Shown here piece by piece: positions 15,214-37,777 of a stretch of 64,000 nt of DNA. Each line of letters opens with the position of its first letter. Positions within the stretch are counted from its first letter, which is position 1. The position numbers and the translations under genes are program-made. This DNA is from Aporhodopirellula aestuarii (GTDB lineage Bacteria; Planctomycetota; Planctomycetia; Pirellulales; Pirellulaceae): positions 1 to 64,000 of the forward strand of contig NZ_JAMQBK010000016.1 of NCBI RefSeq assembly GCF_023701485.1, written 5' to 3'. The notes under the pieces were generated by a model. The model had not been told where the DNA came from. It did not search any database and saw only the letters and a program-made list of their open reading frames with translations.

Positions 15214-15777
15214 ATGGCTTCCGTAACCGAAATCTTGCAGTCGAGCCAGAAAGGCGATGTGAAGAAGACGGACCAGCTGTTTACGGTGTTGTATGACGAT
15301 TTGCACAAAATGGCGGGCCGTTTCCTTCGCTCGGAACCCCAGCGGCAAAAGCTCAGCAGTTCGTCGTTGGTCCACCAGGCGTATGTCCGCATGGTCGATC
15401 AGAACGAGGTCGATTGGCAGGGAAAAACCCACTTCTTTGCCATCGGTGCGACCGTGATGCGGCGAATTCTCGTCGATCACGCCCGGCACACCCGGGCCCA
15501 GAAACGCGGTGGGGGATGGCTGCGGCGGCAACTCGACGAAGAAATCACGTTCGTACTTGATCGCGATGACGACGTCGTTGCTCTCGATGAGCTGCTCAAC
15601 ACGCTCGCCGAGCTAAGCCCGCGCCAGGCAAAAATTGTCGAATTTCGATTCTTTGGCGGGTTAGCGATGAAAGAAATCGCGAACGAACTCAACCTGGGTT
15701 TGCGCACCGTTGAGAAGGACTGGGCGATGGCACGGGCCTGGATGAGACGCGAACTTCGAGATCCCGACCAGGAGTAA
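15214..15777 (+). CDS. ECF RNA polymerase sigma factor (kinase-linked, TIGR02999-like)
   Basis: A 187-residue extracytoplasmic-function sigma factor. Region 2 covers about residues 15-90 (SSLVHQAYVRMVD, then ATVMRRILVDHAR), and region 4 about 125-180 with the helix-turn-helix KEIANELNLGLRTVEKDWAMARAW. The HFFAIGATVMRRILVDHAR and RFFGGL signatures are typical of the ECF group common in Planctomycetes and Acidobacteria whose genes sit beside Ser/Thr kinases instead of anti-sigma factors. The kinase gene begins seven bases after the stop. Activity is therefore expected to be controlled by phosphorylation by that kinase. Confidence 0.93.
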   Translation: MASVTEILQSSQKGDVKKTDQLFTVLYDDLHKMAGRFLRSEPQRQKLSSSSLVHQAYVRMVDQNEVDWQGKTHFFAIGATVMRRILVDHARHTRAQKRGGGWLRRQLDEEITFVLDRDDDVVALDELLNTLAELSPRQAKIVEFRFFGGLAMKEIANELNLGLRTVEKDWAMARAWMRRELRDPDQE

Positions 15778-15784
15778 GGGCGTT

Positions 15785-18355
15785 GTGGACGCGAAACGCT
15801 ACCAGCAGATCCAAGACATTTTTTGGAAGGCTGAAGAACTCCCACAACAGGATCAGGAATCGTTCGTTCGCGAATCGGCAGGCGACGATTATCAGCTGAT
15901 CGATGAAGTCCTCTCGCTACTCCGCGAGCACGATGCCGATGCCGCGTTGCTCGAGGGACGATCCGTTCAGCCGGTTCGATTGCCAGGATCGACCAAAATC
16001 GGGATCGCCGTTGAAGACAGGCAAGAGGCAGCCTCATATGTGGGTGGGGAGGGCAGCGGTGAGAGCGACCGCCCTGACATTCGAAAAACAGTCCCGATGG
16101 ATCGCCCGGACGGTCCGCCTTCTGAATTCTCCGGTAAACCACCCAGTGGTGCCAACGCTTCCGGTTCGGGAAAAGCACCGACGACTAAAAAAGGGCCCAA
16201 AGGCGACTCTCGCCGAAACGCTGGCCAACGAACCGTCGGCGGTTCCCAGCGGACACACGCGGCACCACGACATCCCAAAACGCCGCGTGAGAAACGCAAA
16301 CGCCGACCAGGGTCCGATTCGAGAGTCCCCGCGAACCTGCCAACGTCGATTGGTCCAAAACGGTTTCGGTTTTCATGGCTGCCCCTATGGATCGCAATCG
16401 TGCTTTCGGCCCTCGTTCCGATTTGGTTTGCCGCGTGGACGATCGGTAGTCGACAAATCGAACAGGAAGAATTGGCTAACCACCGGCTCCTGTCGTCGGT
16501 GCTCGAACGATCCCGTTTGCAATTCGAAAGCCTCCTTTCGACCGACCGTCAGATCAGCGAACGGATCGCCCTCGAAGCAAGTGAGGGGGCCATCGTTCAG
16601 GATGGATCTCCGGGGGGCGATGCCAGCCACGCACCGACGGTTTTGAATGCGTTTATGGCGAATCAAGACCAACGCGAACGAGACGAAACCACGTTCATCA
16701 TTTGGGACCGCACCTTCCGCATCGTGGCCAAGTCAACACCCCACGACGTCCCTGACGAGTTCTGGACTGCACGCTACGCGGGCCCCGTCTCCCGATGTCT
16801 CGAACATCAATCGGTATTCATCGGTCCCGCGACGAGGCACAGCCTCAATAGCCAAGGGGCACGCGATGTCGTCCCCGACCACGGCGACGGTTGGATGTTT
16901 CCGATCAAGGACCACGACAACCCCGAAGACGTTCTCGGCGTGGTCCTGATCACGCGGCATGGGCTGCGGTCGGTCATCAATGCCGCATTCGAAGAGCTTT
17001 CCCTTGAAACGGGCGTCGATGTCTATCTGGTCGATCGACAAGGCATCATGCAGACCGAGAGCCGATGGGTCCTGGCTATGCGTGATCGAAACGAGCTTCC
17101 GAACGATCCGAACAAACCGTTTCGGGTTGCCGAGTACACTCCGTTGCACAAGAGCGCCCCCAACAGTAGACAAGTCCAACCGTTGACGGTTGCGGCCGCA
17201 TCGGTCAGTACCAACCGCGGCAGTATCGTGTACCCGTCTGCGTACCCCAGTTATCACGGCGGCTACACTTCCGGTGCATCGGTTTGGTTACCCGCGTGTG
17301 AGCTCGGAATGATTGCGGAAATTCCTGTACAACGCTACGTATCGGCGTTCTCGTTAACTTGGCCGGGCGCACTCCTGGGCAGCCTCTTGGCATGCGGCGT
17401 CGCTTCGGCGGTAACATGGTGGCACCAATCGAAGATTCATTCTATTACTGACGCCCGGCAACCACTCGGCCGATACGAAATTCGACGCGAACTCGGTTCC
17501 GGCGGCATGGGCGTCGTGTACTTAGCCCGACACAAAGAACTCAGCCGCGACATCGCGTTGAAAGTGCTCCGTGGCGACCGCCAAGACGAGGACGACCGGC
17601 AACGCTTTGATCGCGAAGCACGTTTGGCTGCATCGTTGTCGTGTCCACACAGCGTCACGGTGTATGACTTTGGATACACCGCCGATGATTCCGCGTTTTG
17701 TGTGATGGAGTTGCTGCACGGGCTTACGCTCGCCGAAGTCGTTGCCCGCGGTGGGGCGCAGCCTCCTGGCCGTGTTGTCTGGATCATGCAACAGATTTGC
17801 CAATCAATGCTCGAAGCACACGGCAAAGGACTCATGCACCGCGACCTTAAACCGCAAAACGTGATGCTGCGGTTCGACAGTATTGTCGGCGACTGGGCGA
17901 CCGTGTTCGATTTCGGCTTAGCCAAACCGATTGAACCCGATCACGACGTTTTTCAAACCTCGGAAACCGTTTGGGCAGGGACCCCGATGTACATGGCTCC
18001 CGAACGTTTTCGCGACCCATCGTCGATGGATCCACGCAGCGACATCTATTCGATCGGCTGCATCGCATACTACTTGCTCGCCGGGAATCCGCCGTTCGCG
18101 GAGTGCGATCCCGAATCGATGTTTGCCTTGATTATGAGTGAGCACCCCATCAGCATCGCCACCCACCGCAGCGAAGCGATCGACGATCGGCTGAACCACT
18201 GGGTCAACGAATGCATGAGAAAAGACAAGCGATCACGTGCCGAGAGCATTCCGGAACTGATCCGTTCTCTGCAAGAGATGTCCGATGACATGCCGTGGAA
18301 CCGCAGCGATGCCGACACGTGGTGGACCACGCACGCCCCAGAACTGCACGGATGA
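15785..18355 (+). CDS. Membrane Ser/Thr protein kinase with extracytoplasmic sensor and C-terminal kinase
   Basis: An 856-residue Hanks-type kinase with an unusual order. A cytoplasmic N-terminal segment (about 1-198) has a helical region and then a long Ser/Pro/Lys-rich disordered stretch. TM1 (about 199-220) follows, then about 300 extracytoplasmic residues resembling a double-Cache-type sensor, TM2 (about 521-543), and only then the kinase domain (about 563-840). Kinase motifs are complete: GSGGMGVVY, ALKVL, HRDLKPQN, DFGL and APERF. In PknB-like kinases the kinase is N-terminal and the sensor C-terminal; here the topology resembles a sensor histidine kinase. The start is a GTG. Coupling to the sigma factor gene suggests a one-operon transmembrane signal-to-transcription pathway. 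Confidence 0.92.
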   Translation: MDAKRYQQIQDIFWKAEELPQQDQESFVRESAGDDYQLIDEVLSLLREHDADAALLEGRSVQPVRLPGSTKIGIAVEDRQEAASYVGGEGSGESDRPDIRKTVPMDRPDGPPSEFSGKPPSGANASGSGKAPTTKKGPKGDSRRNAGQRTVGGSQRTHAAPRHPKTPREKRKRRPGSDSRVPANLPTSIGPKRFRFSWLPLWIAIVLSALVPIWFAAWTIGSRQIEQEELANHRLLSSVLERSRLQFESLLSTDRQISERIALEASEGAIVQDGSPGGDASHAPTVLNAFMANQDQRERDETTFIIWDRTFRIVAKSTPHDVPDEFWTARYAGPVSRCLEHQSVFIGPATRHSLNSQGARDVVPDHGDGWMFPIKDHDNPEDVLGVVLITRHGLRSVINAAFEELSLETGVDVYLVDRQGIMQTESRWVLAMRDRNELPNDPNKPFRVAEYTPLHKSAPNSRQVQPLTVAAASVSTNRGSIVYPSAYPSYHGGYTSGASVWLPACELGMIAEIPVQRYVSAFSLTWPGALLGSLLACGVASAVTWWHQSKIHSITDARQPLGRYEIRRELGSGGMGVVYLARHKELSRDIALKVLRGDRQDEDDRQRFDREARLAASLSCPHSVTVYDFGYTADDSAFCVMELLHGLTLAEVVARGGAQPPGRVVWIMQQICQSMLEAHGKGLMHRDLKPQNVMLRFDSIVGDWATVFDFGLAKPIEPDHDVFQTSETVWAGTPMYMAPERFRDPSSMDPRSDIYSIGCIAYYLLAGNPPFAECDPESMFALIMSEHPISIATHRSEAIDDRLNHWVNECMRKDKRSRAESIPELIRSLQEMSDDMPWNRSDADTWWTTHAPELHG

Positions 18356-18427
18356 CTGGTCACCTCCGGGTGAGATATGTTATGCCAGCTTTTCACTGGC
18401 CCTTTTCGTTTCCTTTGCTGCAAATCC

Positions 18428-18982
18428 ATGCCGATTCTGCCTCCCGAACCTGACATTTTCCCCGACGACTTACTCGATCAACCTGAGTCACATGATTCGC
18501 CGTGGTGGTTGCTTTACACGCGAACGCGACAAGAAAAAAAAGTGCTGCGACACTTGCGCGAAGCCCAGATCGGCCATTACGGACCGATGATTCCGCAACG
18601 GACGCGTTCGCCGGCCGGCCGGATTCGCACCTCTTACATCCCGCTCTTCTCAACCTACGTGTTCCTGCGTGGGGGCGATGAAGAACGGCATGCGGCAATC
18701 TGCACCGGATGTGTTCTCAAAGCCGTCGAGATTCTCGAGGTCGAAGAGCTTATTCAAGATTTAACACAAATCCGTAACCTTATCGCCCTCGGCATACCGC
18801 TGACGCTCGAAAGTCGTCTCAAGCCGGGTGCAATCGTCCGCGTGAAGAGCGGCGCGTTCCAGGGATACGAGGGAACCATCATCCGACGAGAAAACGAATC
18901 CCGCCTGCTCGTTGCCGTCCGCTTCATGGAACAGGGCGTCAGCGTCAAACTCGAAGACTGCCAGGTCGAGACGATCGGTTAG
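18428..18982 (+). CDS. NusG-like transcription antitermination protein (RfaH/LoaP type)
   Basis: A specialised NusG paralogue of about 184 residues. The NGN domain (about 22-115) begins WWLLYTRTRQEKKVLRHL and includes IPLFSTYVFLRG. It is followed by a KOW domain (about 132-180) with the classic GAIVRVKSGAFQGYEGTI. Such paralogues bind RNA polymerase and suppress pausing or Rho termination, often in long surface-polysaccharide operons. No such operon follows here, so its target is elsewhere. The true housekeeping nusG would be in the secE/rplK region, which is not in this window. ATG at 18428 is chosen since the 17 residues before it in the open frame look non-conserved. Confidence 0.88.
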   Translation: MPILPPEPDIFPDDLLDQPESHDSPWWLLYTRTRQEKKVLRHLREAQIGHYGPMIPQRTRSPAGRIRTSYIPLFSTYVFLRGGDEERHAAICTGCVLKAVEILEVEELIQDLTQIRNLIALGIPLTLESRLKPGAIVRVKSGAFQGYEGTIIRRENESRLLVAVRFMEQGVSVKLEDCQVETIG

Positions 18983-19192
18983 TCCGAGACCGCGGCGCAG
19001 CTGCATCAGGTCCGTTCACTACTTCTAGCCATGTCAGGGGAGTGCACGGGTCGCCCGACTTGGTATTCTGGGGGATGGAGTGATCCGCTTGCGACGCGCA
19101 TTTGCCGTCGCGACGCCGGATTTGCTTCCCACCTGGGACTCACTCGAGTCCCAAACTTCCTGCCCATTCCATACTCGGACGACACCAAACCC

Positions 19193-19900
19193 ATGCGATT
19201 CACGCTACTTTCACTATCCCTTTTGACACTGCTGACAATGACAACGTCGACACACGGACAAGACACCGAAACCACAGTCGACGACACAGTCGGTTACTAC
19301 CTGGGCTTCTCGGTTGGGCAGTCTTTTGCCCAACAAGGCTTTGAAGCAGACGATTTCACTTTCGCAGGAATGCAACAAGGCTTGACCGACGCCTTGACCG
19401 GCGAAGCCCCTACCTTGACAGATGAACAGCTCGCCGAGGTCCAAGGCAAAATCCAAGCGATTTTGCAAAAACGCCAAGCCGCCCGCGAGGAAGAAATGCA
19501 AAAGCAGGCCGTGCTGAACCTGGAAAAGAGCAACGTCTGGATGGAGCAGAACAGCAAAGCGGAAGGCGTCAAAGACCTCGCCCAAGGGATTCAGTACAAA
19601 GTCATCAATGAAGGCGAAGGCGGCTCACCATCACCTCAAGACACTGTCCGAGTTCACTACACTGGCAAACTGACTAATGGAGAAGTCTTTGACAGCAGTG
19701 TTGCTCGCGGCAAGCCCGCCGAGTTCCCCGTCAACGGTGTCATCCAAGGCTGGCAACTGGCATTGCAAAAGATGAAAGTTGGCTCGAAATGGATGCTCTA
19801 CATCCCGCCAAACATGGCTTACGGCGAACGTGGCTCGGGATCGGCAATCGGCCCGAACGAGGTTTTGATCTTCGAAGTTGAACTGCTTGAGATTCTCTAA
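19193..19900 (+). CDS. Secreted FKBP-type peptidyl-prolyl isomerase (Mip/FkpA-like)
   Basis: A 235-residue protein with a signal peptide (MRFTLLSLSLLTLLTMTTS), an N-terminal helical FKBP_N dimerisation domain (about 30-125), and a C-terminal FKBP domain (about 140-235) with the active-site residues in place: VRVHYTGKL, GEVFDSS, NGVIQGWQLAL and YIPPNMAYGERG. It catalyses cis/trans isomerisation of X-Pro bonds in the periplasm. The frame is open 54 codons upstream, but ATG 19193 alone gives a signal peptide. The Ni-SOD gene begins 32 bases downstream on the same strand, so co-transcription is likely. A role in helping the nickel-hook proline of that enzyme is an attractive inference. Confidence 0.93.
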   Translation: MRFTLLSLSLLTLLTMTTSTHGQDTETTVDDTVGYYLGFSVGQSFAQQGFEADDFTFAGMQQGLTDALTGEAPTLTDEQLAEVQGKIQAILQKRQAAREEEMQKQAVLNLEKSNVWMEQNSKAEGVKDLAQGIQYKVINEGEGGSPSPQDTVRVHYTGKLTNGEVFDSSVARGKPAEFPVNGVIQGWQLALQKMKVGSKWMLYIPPNMAYGERGSGSAIGPNEVLIFEVELLEIL

Positions 19901-34206: not shown

Positions 34207-37149
34207 CTATCCGAACCGCAATACGCTATACGTTTCGGCCGCTTGTTCGAGCAGCGTCATCGAAGTCATCGCCGGATGTTTGCACAAAACCAACGGCAGC
34301 ATCGGCAACTGAGCCGCGATCAGCCGTGCCAACAACAGATCCGGTGGCTCACGCTCGGCGAGATCATTCCGTCTCAGTTGCAAGATCGCCGCATTGATCG
34401 TCGGTCCAAATGGGCCATAGGGCAATTCAGACAAACGCTTTTCGCGGGCGGCGAAATATCCCATGCCACCGATCGTCGGCGACCATTCCAAATCAGAATC
34501 CAATTTGGCGGCCTCAATGAAATTACTCGACTGCTCATGGATGTCGATCAACAGTCCGCGTGCGAACCGGTCTTCTTCCATAGCCACGTTGTCTCGGATT
34601 AACCCGATCGCCGATTGAATGGCACGATCAGCATTGCCGCGGAACCACTCGGCACGGGCAAGCTCGGTTTTCAAAAATCGCGAGGCCGGGTGCAAACCGG
34701 TAGCCCGCCGCATGAACTGCATCCCTTGCGAATCTTCCAACTGAATAATCTTCAGCCAACCCGCCTGATGATGGACCTGCCAATGATTCGGACTCGTTCG
34801 CACGAGACTGCGGAGAGTGTCGTCGGCGGTGTCGAAGTCCGCAAGCACCTGGTAATTCAACATCGCGCGTGCCAACAACGCATCGCGATTCCCCGGTGAC
34901 AGCGCGAGTGCTCGGGAAGATGCCTCTTGGCTGAGTGAAACCAGATCGTTCGCCTGTTCATCGTCCTCGCGTGCGGCAAGACTGATCGCGGTGAGGGCAA
35001 CACCCGCGTGCGCTTGGGCGTAATTTGAATCAACGGAAAGGGCATGTTGAAAACACCGCAACGCCGTTTTCATGGCCTCGGCGGTGTCGGGATCCGAAAG
35101 CGTACGTCCTTTGACAAGGCACGTAAATGCTTCCGGATTACTCAGTTTGCCGTTCTCGTCGTTCTGCGATAGTTCGCGTCCGATCGCAGCGGCGAGTTCC
35201 TGGGCGAGTTCAGCCTGTTCGATCAAGTTGTCGCCCGCAGCGGTCGGAATCACCAACCCTTCGATCAGATAGCCCGTCCGCCCCGAGATGATGTCAACGT
35301 TCACCGTCATGATTCGCTTGGTACCCGTTGCGTCGAGCCCGATCGGGTCCGGCCCCGCCTGAGTGAGCGAGAAAGTCCCCGTCACCAATGCGTCAACTTC
35401 GAGTAACCTCGCCGCTTCGCGAAACTCTTCTGGCTGCGTCGCCGTGATCGGCACGTATTTGGGAACCGTGATTCCATCGATTCGCGAAAGTTCGTTGACG
35501 AGCAACCCAGACAACAATTCTCCTTGATCGAGCATGCGATCGGGAGGAACGGCGTCATCGTTCGAAATTGTCGCGGCGCTAGCATTCTGGAACCGCAGCA
35601 CACCGATCGAACGGATCGCTCGCAACTCTCCCTTCGCCTTTCCGGGTAGCAACGTCGCACCGAGCACGCCACCAGCGACCGCGCCGCCTAATAGTTCGAC
35701 CAACCGACGTCGGCTGATCACGACGCTTCCATCATGCCTCGCCTCGTTGGCACCGATGAGCGTGGAACCGTCCCGACTTGGGTTACGAAGCCCCGGGCCA
35801 GACGACTGTAACGTGTTGAGCACTTCCGCAGCGGAAGGTCTCGCCGACGGATCCTTGGAAAGCATCGAAAGAATAAGATCCGCCAATGCGACGTCGTCGC
35901 GGCGACGCGCGGGATCGGCGAGCGGCTGCTTTTCCAGCACCGCGGTAAATCGCTTCGTTGCCGTCTCGCCTGAAAAAGCAGGTCGCCCAAACATCGCTTC
36001 AAACAAGACACATCCCAACGAAAACACATCAGCGGCGGGCGTGATGACTCCCCCGCGCGCTTGTTCGGGGGCCATGTATCCAGGGGTTCCCAAGATCATG
36101 CCGACACGGGTCGCCGAATCGTTGTCAGAGATTTTGCGGGCGTTCTCAGGCGTCAGGATGGGCGAGAGGCCCGAGTCCTGTTGCCAATTCGTCGACCCCA
36201 CTCGCGAGAGGCCAAAGTCGAATAACTTCAAACTCGATCCAAAGCCACTTTTCGAGTCGCCGCTGTTGCTCCCGCCCTCGCCATCAGACGTCGACGGCCG
36301 CGCGCGATTCATCACCATCACGTTTTCGGGTTTGATGTCACGATGGATCACGCCGCTTGCGTGAGCGACCGCGAGCGCGTCGGCGAGTTGGATGCCCCAA
36401 TTGCGAATCTGCTGAGTCGTGATCGGCTCGCTCGCGATTCGATCCTTTTGCATCCGGTGCATCAATGTTTCACCACGCAGATGCTCCATCACGACATAAG
36501 GCATGCCCTCATAGACGCCGATGTCAAACAATTCCACAATATGCGGGTGGGTCAGTGCAGCGACCGCTTTAGCCTCACGCTGGAATCGCTCGACCAAGAC
36601 GTGTGATTGTCGATCATGCAACGAGAGCATCTTGATCGCAACACTCCGATCCAATCGTGTATCGGTCGCACGATAAACGATGCCCATCCCGCCACGACCA
36701 AGCACGCTGGTCAACAGGTACGGACCGATCGTGTCACCGAGGTTAGGCAGATCATCGGGAGTTTCGTCGGCACCATGTTTGTCGGCTGCCGCTATTCCGA
36801 TCGCCTCCGTCGGCGCACCATGAACATCACCTGGGGTGGGATGACCATGTTCGGTATCACTCGTTGTGCTACCTGCCCCCGCAGCGATCTTGGCGACGTC
36901 CAACTGACCACTCGAAGGCCCACCTTCACGATGTTCTCGCATCAGTTCTTCTAAGATTGCTTCGAGTTCGGTACGAAGCAGCGGCGCGTGCTCGCCGCCA
37001 TACCGCTCGACGAGTGGAGCGATCTCGGTCTGCACACTTTGGGGGTCGCCCCCGGTGCGTAACACTTCTCGTACGCGAGATTCATACTCAAGACAGATCG
37101 CGTCGAGCCGCGCCAGTTCACGAGCAGGTAGATCACTGAGTTTCATCAT
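34207..37149 (-). CDS. Ser/Thr protein kinase with TolB-like and TPR domains
   Basis: A 980-residue Hanks kinase. An N-terminal segment of about 140 residues contains a helical region and Gly/Ser/His-rich linker. The kinase domain (about 141-450) has GRGGMGIVY, AIKML, HRDIKPEN, DFGLSR and GTPGYMAPEQ. A single span (about 478-498, after basic SRRR) separates it from an outside C-terminal half: a TolB-like region (RSIGVLRFQ and LVTGTFSL) and then about 300 residues of TPR-like helices (AMKTALRCFQHALSVDSNYAQAHAGVALTA). This is the classical kinase-inside, sensor-outside layout and differs from the kinase at 15.8 kb. It begins inside the sigma gene (17-base overlap), so the two are translationally coupled. 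Confidence 0.92.
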   Translation of the reverse strand: MMKLSDLPARELARLDAICLEYESRVREVLRTGGDPQSVQTEIAPLVERYGGEHAPLLRTELEAILEELMREHREGGPSSGQLDVAKIAAGAGSTTSDTEHGHPTPGDVHGAPTEAIGIAAADKHGADETPDDLPNLGDTIGPYLLTSVLGRGGMGIVYRATDTRLDRSVAIKMLSLHDRQSHVLVERFQREAKAVAALTHPHIVELFDIGVYEGMPYVVMEHLRGETLMHRMQKDRIASEPITTQQIRNWGIQLADALAVAHASGVIHRDIKPENVMVMNRARPSTSDGEGGSNSGDSKSGFGSSLKLFDFGLSRVGSTNWQQDSGLSPILTPENARKISDNDSATRVGMILGTPGYMAPEQARGGVITPAADVFSLGCVLFEAMFGRPAFSGETATKRFTAVLEKQPLADPARRRDDVALADLILSMLSKDPSARPSAAEVLNTLQSSGPGLRNPSRDGSTLIGANEARHDGSVVISRRRLVELLGGAVAGGVLGATLLPGKAKGELRAIRSIGVLRFQNASAATISNDDAVPPDRMLDQGELLSGLLVNELSRIDGITVPKYVPITATQPEEFREAARLLEVDALVTGTFSLTQAGPDPIGLDATGTKRIMTVNVDIISGRTGYLIEGLVIPTAAGDNLIEQAELAQELAAAIGRELSQNDENGKLSNPEAFTCLVKGRTLSDPDTAEAMKTALRCFQHALSVDSNYAQAHAGVALTAISLAAREDDEQANDLVSLSQEASSRALALSPGNRDALLARAMLNYQVLADFDTADDTLRSLVRTSPNHWQVHHQAGWLKIIQLEDSQGMQFMRRATGLHPASRFLKTELARAEWFRGNADRAIQSAIGLIRDNVAMEEDRFARGLLIDIHEQSSNFIEAAKLDSDLEWSPTIGGMGYFAAREKRLSELPYGPFGPTINAAILQLRRNDLAEREPPDLLLARLIAAQLPMLPLVLCKHPAMTSMTLLEQAAETYSVLRFG

Positions 37150-37777
37150 GCTCCTCCTCCGACTCGCGCTGTTCCGACCACGTCTTGCGAATTAATTGCA
37201 ATCGACGCTCAACCGCCCGCTTGCTGATGTCCAAGCGCCCGGCGATTTCATCGACCAAATATCCGTCCATTCTCAACACCGCGATCTCTCTCAATTGTGC
37301 GTCAGGCAACGCGTCGAGCAATTGTTCACAAGCTTCCGCCAGCTCGGCTCGCACGTCGGGCCGCGCCGCATCATCTCCGCCGCCCATCTGTTCCAACCCG
37401 GCCGGCCCCGCATCGCCTCGCGCGTCGAGGAAAACCGATTCTCCTCGAACGTTGCCGCCACCTCTCTTTTGACGTGTCTGGCGGCGTAAATGTGCGTTCA
37501 CTTTTCGGCTGGTTAGCGTGATTAACAATCCCCACAGGTTATCCGGCCCAGCCAAATCAGGAAACTGATCCCGCCGGACCCCCGCGATGAAACTATGGAA
37601 CGCTGACAACGCGATGTCCTCCTCATCGCCCGTGCGACGAAGATTTTTGGGTAATCGCGTCCCCGCGAGCCTTACGAGTGGATGGAAGTAACGTTCCCAC
37701 AGAATGGTCGTTGCCTGCTCGTCACCGTCACGAACCTGGTCAAGCAACTCCGCAAATTTCTCGAACGTGTATTCCAT
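37133..37777 (-). CDS. ECF RNA polymerase sigma factor (kinase-linked)
   Basis: A 214-residue ECF sigma factor. Region 2 covers about residues 20-90 (ILWERYFHPLVRLAGTRL, DEEDIALSAFHSFIAGV) and region 4 about 150-200 with the helix-turn-helix DEIAGRLDISKRAVERRLQLIRKTW. Between them is a Gly/Ala/Asp-rich linker of about 45 residues. The EDIALSAFHSF motif is typical of the planctomycete sigma groups beside kinases. Its 3' end overlaps the kinase start by 17 bases, so phosphorylation by that kinase is the likely control. No anti-sigma factor is found nearby. It is upstream of the kinase and downstream of the YgfZ-like gene. Confidence 0.9.
   Translation of the reverse strand: MEYTFEKFAELLDQVRDGDEQATTILWERYFHPLVRLAGTRLPKNLRRTGDEEDIALSAFHSFIAGVRRDQFPDLAGPDNLWGLLITLTSRKVNAHLRRQTRQKRGGGNVRGESVFLDARGDAGPAGLEQMGGGDDAARPDVRAELAEACEQLLDALPDAQLREIAVLRMDGYLVDEIAGRLDISKRAVERRLQLIRKTWSEQRESEEEHDETQ

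Follow-up and report, generated by a model that had tools for sequence, protein, structure and literature searches.

How a Hanks-type kinase chooses one among the dozen or more sigma factors of a planctomycete is the question raised by a gene pair in the window (the whole stretch of 64,000 nucleotides of Aporhodopirellula aestuarii contig NZ_JAMQBK010000016.1 that was analysed). The genome (9.07 Mb) holds about 16 adjacent sigma-kinase pairs, judged by sigma and kinase positions, and among the pairs examined the one described here was the only one in which the kinase domain follows a second membrane span (the reversed layout, as opposed to the conventional layout with the kinase domain before the span). 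By analogy with two experimentally studied pairs, this receptor kinase probably turns the adjoining sigma factor on by phosphorylation. The features considered were the following.

15214..15777, plus strand: ECF sigma factor of the phospho-activated (ECF43-like) kind, 187 aa (PF07638, 227.8 bits; TIGR02999, 221 bits)
15355..15366, plus strand: sigma region 2.2, S48-S49-S50-S51, candidate phosphorylation site (alignment with QPTA-type sigma factors)
15770..15774, plus strand: likely ribosome-binding site AGGAG of the kinase gene, within the end of the sigma gene (sequence)
15785..18355, plus strand: receptor Ser/Thr kinase gene, GTG start, 856 aa (ORF, Pfam, full-length relatives at 37-70% identity)
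15785..15958, plus strand: three-helix module, residues 1-58, homologous to PknS 6-50 (profile matches, AlphaFold)
15959..16378, plus strand: basic cytoplasmic linker, residues 59-198 (sequence composition)
16379..16435, plus strand: TM1, residues 199-217 (hydropathy 2.17, preceding basic residues, conservation, helix in the AlphaFold model)
16436..17365, plus strand: extracytoplasmic dCache sensor, residues 218-527 (AlphaFold, Foldseek, dCache_1 matches of relatives)
17366..17422, plus strand: TM2, residues 528-546 (hydropathy 1.47, following basic residues, helix in the AlphaFold model)
17474..18244, plus strand: Hanks-type Ser/Thr kinase domain, residues 564-820 (PF00069, 154.8 bits; catalytic residues invariant)
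34207..37777, minus strand: comparison pair, not part of the system (sigma factor 37133-37777, conventional kinase 34207-37149)

The product of the first gene was identified as a member of the Sigma70_ECF subfamily by both Pfam and NCBIfam (the TIGR02999 cut-off being 126 bits). ECF43 factors lack the acidic DAED motif in region 2.2 and obtain the charge from a phosphorylated Thr instead; both EcfP and EcfK are activated by phosphorylation at this site (PMC8999054, PMC13147305). In the alignment, SSSS occupies the DAED place of the window sigma factor, leaving no acidic residue at positions 48-51, and S50 shares a column with the conserved Thr of the QPTA-type sigma factors, a column that is taken to be that of the phosphorylated Thr of EcfP and of T51 of EcfK. 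The same loss was seen in all sigma factors that adjoin reversed kinases: positions 48-51 are free of acidic residues in all 37, with Thr in 18, Ser in 16 and Ala in three at position 50, and the three with Ala have Ser on both sides. In the sigma factors that adjoin conventional kinases with the N-terminal module described below, the acceptor column is Thr in 37 out of 39. For two groups, ECF59 and the former ECF60, a Ser acceptor had already been proposed (PMC8103513), so the serine acceptor in the window is not in itself new; by its sequence the window sigma factor would be ECF43-like, with a Ser-for-Thr exchange otherwise described for those two groups. Nothing resembling a conserved promoter could be aligned upstream of the sigma gene, nor was there an excess of terminators or sigma-70-type promoters. 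In four relatives (L041, L043, L046 and L048) the end of an apparent histone-deacetylase-like gene, recognised by eye, stands directly before the sigma gene, an arrangement that differs from the one in the window.

The Ser/Thr kinase gene starts 7 bases downstream, with the TAA of the sigma gene ending at 15777 and the GTG at 15785, as the preliminary description of this DNA had it, and the adjacency is kept in relatives. The GTG start is supported by the fact that relatives align from residue 1. Also borne out was the proposed order of cytoplasmic tail, TM1, outside part, TM2 and Hanks kinase at the C-terminus, on the basis of hydropathy, 20 relatives, AlphaFold and PF00069. Both membrane segments appear to be real spans: AlphaFold predicted continuous helices at both, basic residues flank their cytoplasmic sides, and TM2, although the weaker of the two on the Kyte-Doolittle scale in the window protein, is present in all 20 relatives checked and often stronger there. 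The reversed layout is kept from the closest relatives (sensor 58% identical) to those at 16-20%, while the length of the linker (residues 59-198) differs among relatives. All Hanks motifs (P-loop, Lys, HRD, DFG and APE) are present in the kinase domain, which follows TM2 after a joint of only ~14 residues, and K593, E611, H685-R686-D687, K689, N692, D709 and G711 (of DFG) and the APE at 738-740 are invariant among the relatives. The nearest named relatives were a kinase of Rhodopirellula sallentina SM41 (66% identity, best segment) and, next, one of Planctomycetes bacterium TBK1r (37%). Pfam and NCBIfam identified nothing in the first 550 residues. Downstream of the kinase gene we observed genes for a NusG/KOW protein of the specialised NusG paralogue type (18377-18982, plus strand, 22 bases past the kinase gene), an FKBP-type isomerase (19031-19900) and, after it, a nickel superoxide dismutase (PF09055; 19927-20397, plus strand). 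Both of the closest relatives (L039 and L040) preserve the gene order between 12.5 and 21.7 kb, but the genes of this stretch did not turn up at the remaining fetched loci.

The region between the two spans, earlier put at some 300 residues, is real but somewhat longer (~310 residues), and the dCache fold for which structure prediction had been suggested was indeed obtained. The AlphaFold model (21-row alignment; pLDDT 84.5, pTM 0.77) and its PDB matches, which cover model residues 25-325, show a long N-terminal helix that carries two PAS-like alpha/beta subdomains, the whole lying between the two spans. The best Foldseek matches in the PDB were the histidine-kinase sensors rpHK1S and DctB, and chemoreceptors (E 1e-6 to 1e-5), and in the VIA-align comparison DctB was the best among crystal structures (Z 13.8, rmsd 4.4 over 231 residues). 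The sequence alone had no match in the PDB and the sensor profile no credible one, and the window sensor scored 11.8 bits against Pfam dCache_1 (cut-off 45); 15 of the 21 aligned relatives matched this family at E up to 1, the best at 2.6e-17. The dCache identity came from the structure model and the relatives only. The RxWY-type motif, which we take from PctA-type sensors to be amino-acid-binding, was absent from the window sensor and the 20 relatives when searched as one simple pattern; an amino-acid ligand of the PctA kind therefore looks unlikely, as far as this one pattern goes.

Another finding concerned the N-terminal part, which had been described simply as a cytoplasmic tail. It is cytoplasmic, but it opens with a conserved module of 58 residues that had been missed. 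Profiles of this module built from 12 and from 34 segments both matched PDB entry 9eed (E 5.7e-6 and 1.4e-10, respectively) and nothing else credibly. This entry is the Xanthomonas citri kinase PknS, which phosphorylates the sigma factor EcfK and whose N-terminal segment is uncharacterised (PMC13147305); PknS was the only sigma-activating kinase of such kind that we met among solved structures. AlphaFold, given the module's own alignment, predicted three helices (pLDDT 89.2). The module belongs to no family in Pfam or NCBIfam, and Foldseek found no match for its model in the PDB, a weak test with 59 residues; a structural match to 9eed is impossible because PknS residues 1-81 are unresolved there.

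We observed a strong association between this module and the presence of a sigma gene. The reversed layout was sampled in 107 distinct kinases, with an intact module in 35, no module in 64 and a degenerate module in eight (from one genus). A sigma gene lies alongside in 35/35 kinases with an intact module and in 0/72 of the others. The survey of sigma-kinase pairs for this topology, proposed earlier, thus yielded the whole arrangement (sigma factor and module-TM-dCache-TM-kinase) at 35 distinct loci, which takes it beyond chance, and also revealed what had been overlooked, namely that most reversed dCache kinases (72/107) have no adjoining sigma gene. In many of these orphans 25-60 residues precede TM1, so that a module would hardly fit or not fit at all. 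The eight kinases with a degenerate module (L201-L208, of the same family) have a reversed dCache kinase and no sigma gene alongside, and are a possible snapshot of a receptor being uncoupled from its sigma factor. Across the phylum a sigma gene was found within 1.5 kb at 24 out of 30 module loci, and in other phyla at 17 out of 26, all of conventional layout. Conventional module kinases do occur without a nearby sigma gene (5/26 in the phylum sample and 9/26 in other phyla; 14/52), so the module may serve other substrates as well. Among 99 background conventional kinases, at loci found by a search with the full kinase, none had the module and none an ECF43-type sigma gene nearby. No significance is claimed for the pattern because the kinases are related and leave 1-3 independent changes on the trees; an independent-pairs test of module and sigma-gene presence found only one pair on well-supported branches. 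The co-occurrence in reversed kinases is a strong pattern, an association and not a proof.

In the kinase-domain tree all reversed kinases lay on one side of a branch and the conventional ones apart (100/100). Joining the reversed with the core conventional module kinases was rejected (AU p 0.0005, with the core set picked after the first tree had been seen, and with the reversed group in that quick tree needing two changes, not one). In the sigma tree the partners of reversed and of conventional kinases likewise split along one branch (SH-aLRT 92), and from these matching splits the pairs of both layouts appear to have diverged together. On these trees two kinase lineages are joined with the module and with this kind of sigma factor, each of them having a sigma lineage of its own; the module was either grafted or is ancient and often lost. 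The single kinase-domain group of the reversed kinases fits one joining of dCache and kinase, and an old one, since within the phylum the highest dCache scores went to other Ser/Thr kinases. A single kinase-domain group carries no information on the output that came before the kinase.

The pair at 34-38 kb had been suggested for comparison. It has the conventional layout (kinase domain at 147-445, one TM near 483-501 and a TPR-like C-terminus), but region 2.2 of its sigma factor has the acidic DEED and the N-terminus of its kinase is different, for which reasons it is no matched control. The module was clear in just one other kinase of the genome (G000:C128, ~92.5-94.0 kb), which has a QPTA sigma factor, the same module and the kinase before the TM, and by these sequence features that pair would be the better same-genome control. 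Kinases of the same genome that adjoin other kinds of ECF factor (L098, L100, L102, L106, L107 and L114) have a different short N-terminal segment (LLxxYLxxLExGxPP...hPeLxxxLxxxLxxL); perhaps each kind of sigma factor goes with a kinase N-terminal module of its own. We also observed ECF43-type sigma fragments, probably remnants of broken genes, at two loci (L099 and L104, G000:C113, ~85-93 kb), and an ECF-type sigma gene divergent from a kinase that is preceded by an apparent cyclic-nucleotide-binding domain (L093, G000:C99, ~23.7-26 kb).

From the computed layout, sensor fold, kinase motifs, loss of the acidic motif, pairing and homology of module and PknS we infer a relay that, taken as a whole from dCache signal to transcription, we consider likely. 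A small molecule outside the cytoplasmic membrane would bind the dCache sensor, and the signal would pass through TM2 and the short joint to the kinase domain. The kinase would activate itself and then phosphorylate the adjoining sigma factor directly at S48-S51, most likely at S50, upon which the added negative charge would stand in for DAED, allowing the sigma factor to bind RNA polymerase and its target genes to be switched on. Meanwhile the cytoplasmic module would most likely hold the sigma factor near the kinase. That the sigma factor is the likely substrate, as proposed earlier, is supported by the lost acidic motif, the four serines, the conserved adjacency and the parallel splits in the trees. 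Counted against the relay were the few independent changes behind the association of module and sigma gene, the conventional module kinases that lack a nearby sigma gene, the weak hydrophobicity of TM2 and the absence of a conserved promoter upstream of the sigma gene in the alignments. More tentatively, and with rather less confidence than for the relay, we suggest that the module may be a portable sigma-coupling domain, present on two Hanks lineages of opposite layout, that decides whether a receptor is coupled to a sigma factor, its loss leading to uncoupling.

The counts for the module bear on what else it could do. If it regulated the kinase itself, by autoinhibition or dimer formation and without relation to the sigma factor, its presence in the 14 conventional kinases that lack a neighbouring sigma gene would be accounted for, and no function has been assigned to the PknS segment (PMC13147305); yet it is absent or degenerate in 72/72 reversed kinases without a sigma gene, all of which keep the dCache domain, the spans and the kinase, and this makes such a role unlikely, if the least so of the alternatives. 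It might instead be a tether or anti-sigma element, with the kinase protein holding the sigma factor in an inactive state at the membrane until signalling releases it; phosphorylation would then loosen the grip instead of restoring the contact with the polymerase. Anti-sigma domains are small helical domains, as the module is, and the module sits at the cytoplasmic end away from the kinase and tracks sigma adjacency in the reversed kinases. Against this, no structure in the PDB, anti-sigma domains included, matched its short model (the weak test mentioned above), and by analogy with EcfP (PMC8999054) a sigma factor that has lost the acidic motif would already be inactive, no partner being needed for this; we regard a tether as improbable.

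The pairing itself could be no more than co-transcription, with other proteins as the real substrates of the kinase, as Hanks kinases are often promiscuous and the 72 orphan reversed dCache kinases manage without an adjoining sigma gene. The conserved pairing, the matching sigma and kinase splits, the loss of the acidic motif and the two experimental analogues speak against it, and we consider this very unlikely. The preliminary description had seen in the protein a sensor histidine kinase in which the HATPase was replaced by a Ser/Thr kinase. The membrane layout is the same, and DctB and rpHK1S are among the best structural matches of the sensor, but chemoreceptors share this fold equally, and it occurs in cyclases and phosphatases too; no remnant of HAMP or DHp was identified, Pfam finding no DHp/HisKA or HATPase in the window kinase and only Pkinase-type domains. 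As the closest dCache domains in the phylum belong to other Ser/Thr kinases, so that the joining is old, we did not retain this origin, which seems quite unlikely. The reading we prefer is still that of a receptor kinase coupled to its sigma factor by phosphorylation. A module common to the proven sigma kinase PknS and to kinases of opposite layout is a candidate for the element of specificity; if this is true, dCache sensors with known ligands could in principle be made to drive phospho-activated sigma factors, and for kinases that look like orphans a sigma partner could be predicted from the sequence.

Two experimentally studied systems come close to the one described here. In PknS-EcfK of X. 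citri (PMC13147305) a phospho-activated ECF factor is likewise paired with a neighbouring membrane Hanks kinase, and the N-terminal helical module is homologous. There, phosphorylation was shown at T51 in region 2 of EcfK, whereas the candidate acceptor in the window is a Ser; PknS has the order module-kinase-TM-TPR, whereas the window kinase has TM1-dCache-TM2 between module and kinase, and its kinase domain belongs to a separate lineage from the conventional module kinases. More generally, conventional PknS-type sigma kinases have the kinase before the span and a C-terminal sensor, an order that the window kinase lacks. In PknT-EcfP of Vibrio parahaemolyticus (ECF43; PMC8999054) the sigma factor is silent until the neighbouring kinase phosphorylates region 2.2, the motif being STTA in EcfP and SSSS in the window. 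PknB/PASTA kinases have a related Hanks domain (the window kinase scores 228 bits with NF033483, below the cut-off of 450) but the opposite arrangement, with the kinase N-terminal, one TM and the PASTA sensor C-terminal. DctB shares the TM-dCache-TM-output layout and the sensor fold, and differs in its output, a DHp-HATPase acting on a response regulator in place of a Hanks kinase and a sigma factor. Proteins combining dCache_1 and Pkinase domains were catalogued as a class in 2016 and 2020 (PMC4822843, PMC7584622); the window kinase has in common with them a dCache sensor joined to a Ser/Thr kinase. The parts of these descriptions that we consulted mention neither a sigma partner nor an N-terminal module, both of which are also lacking in most of the dCache kinases sampled here. 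Fusions of dCache and kinase and phospho-activated ECF factors are thus each known separately; what is new is a conserved lineage of sigma-coupled receptor kinases in the Planctomycetota.
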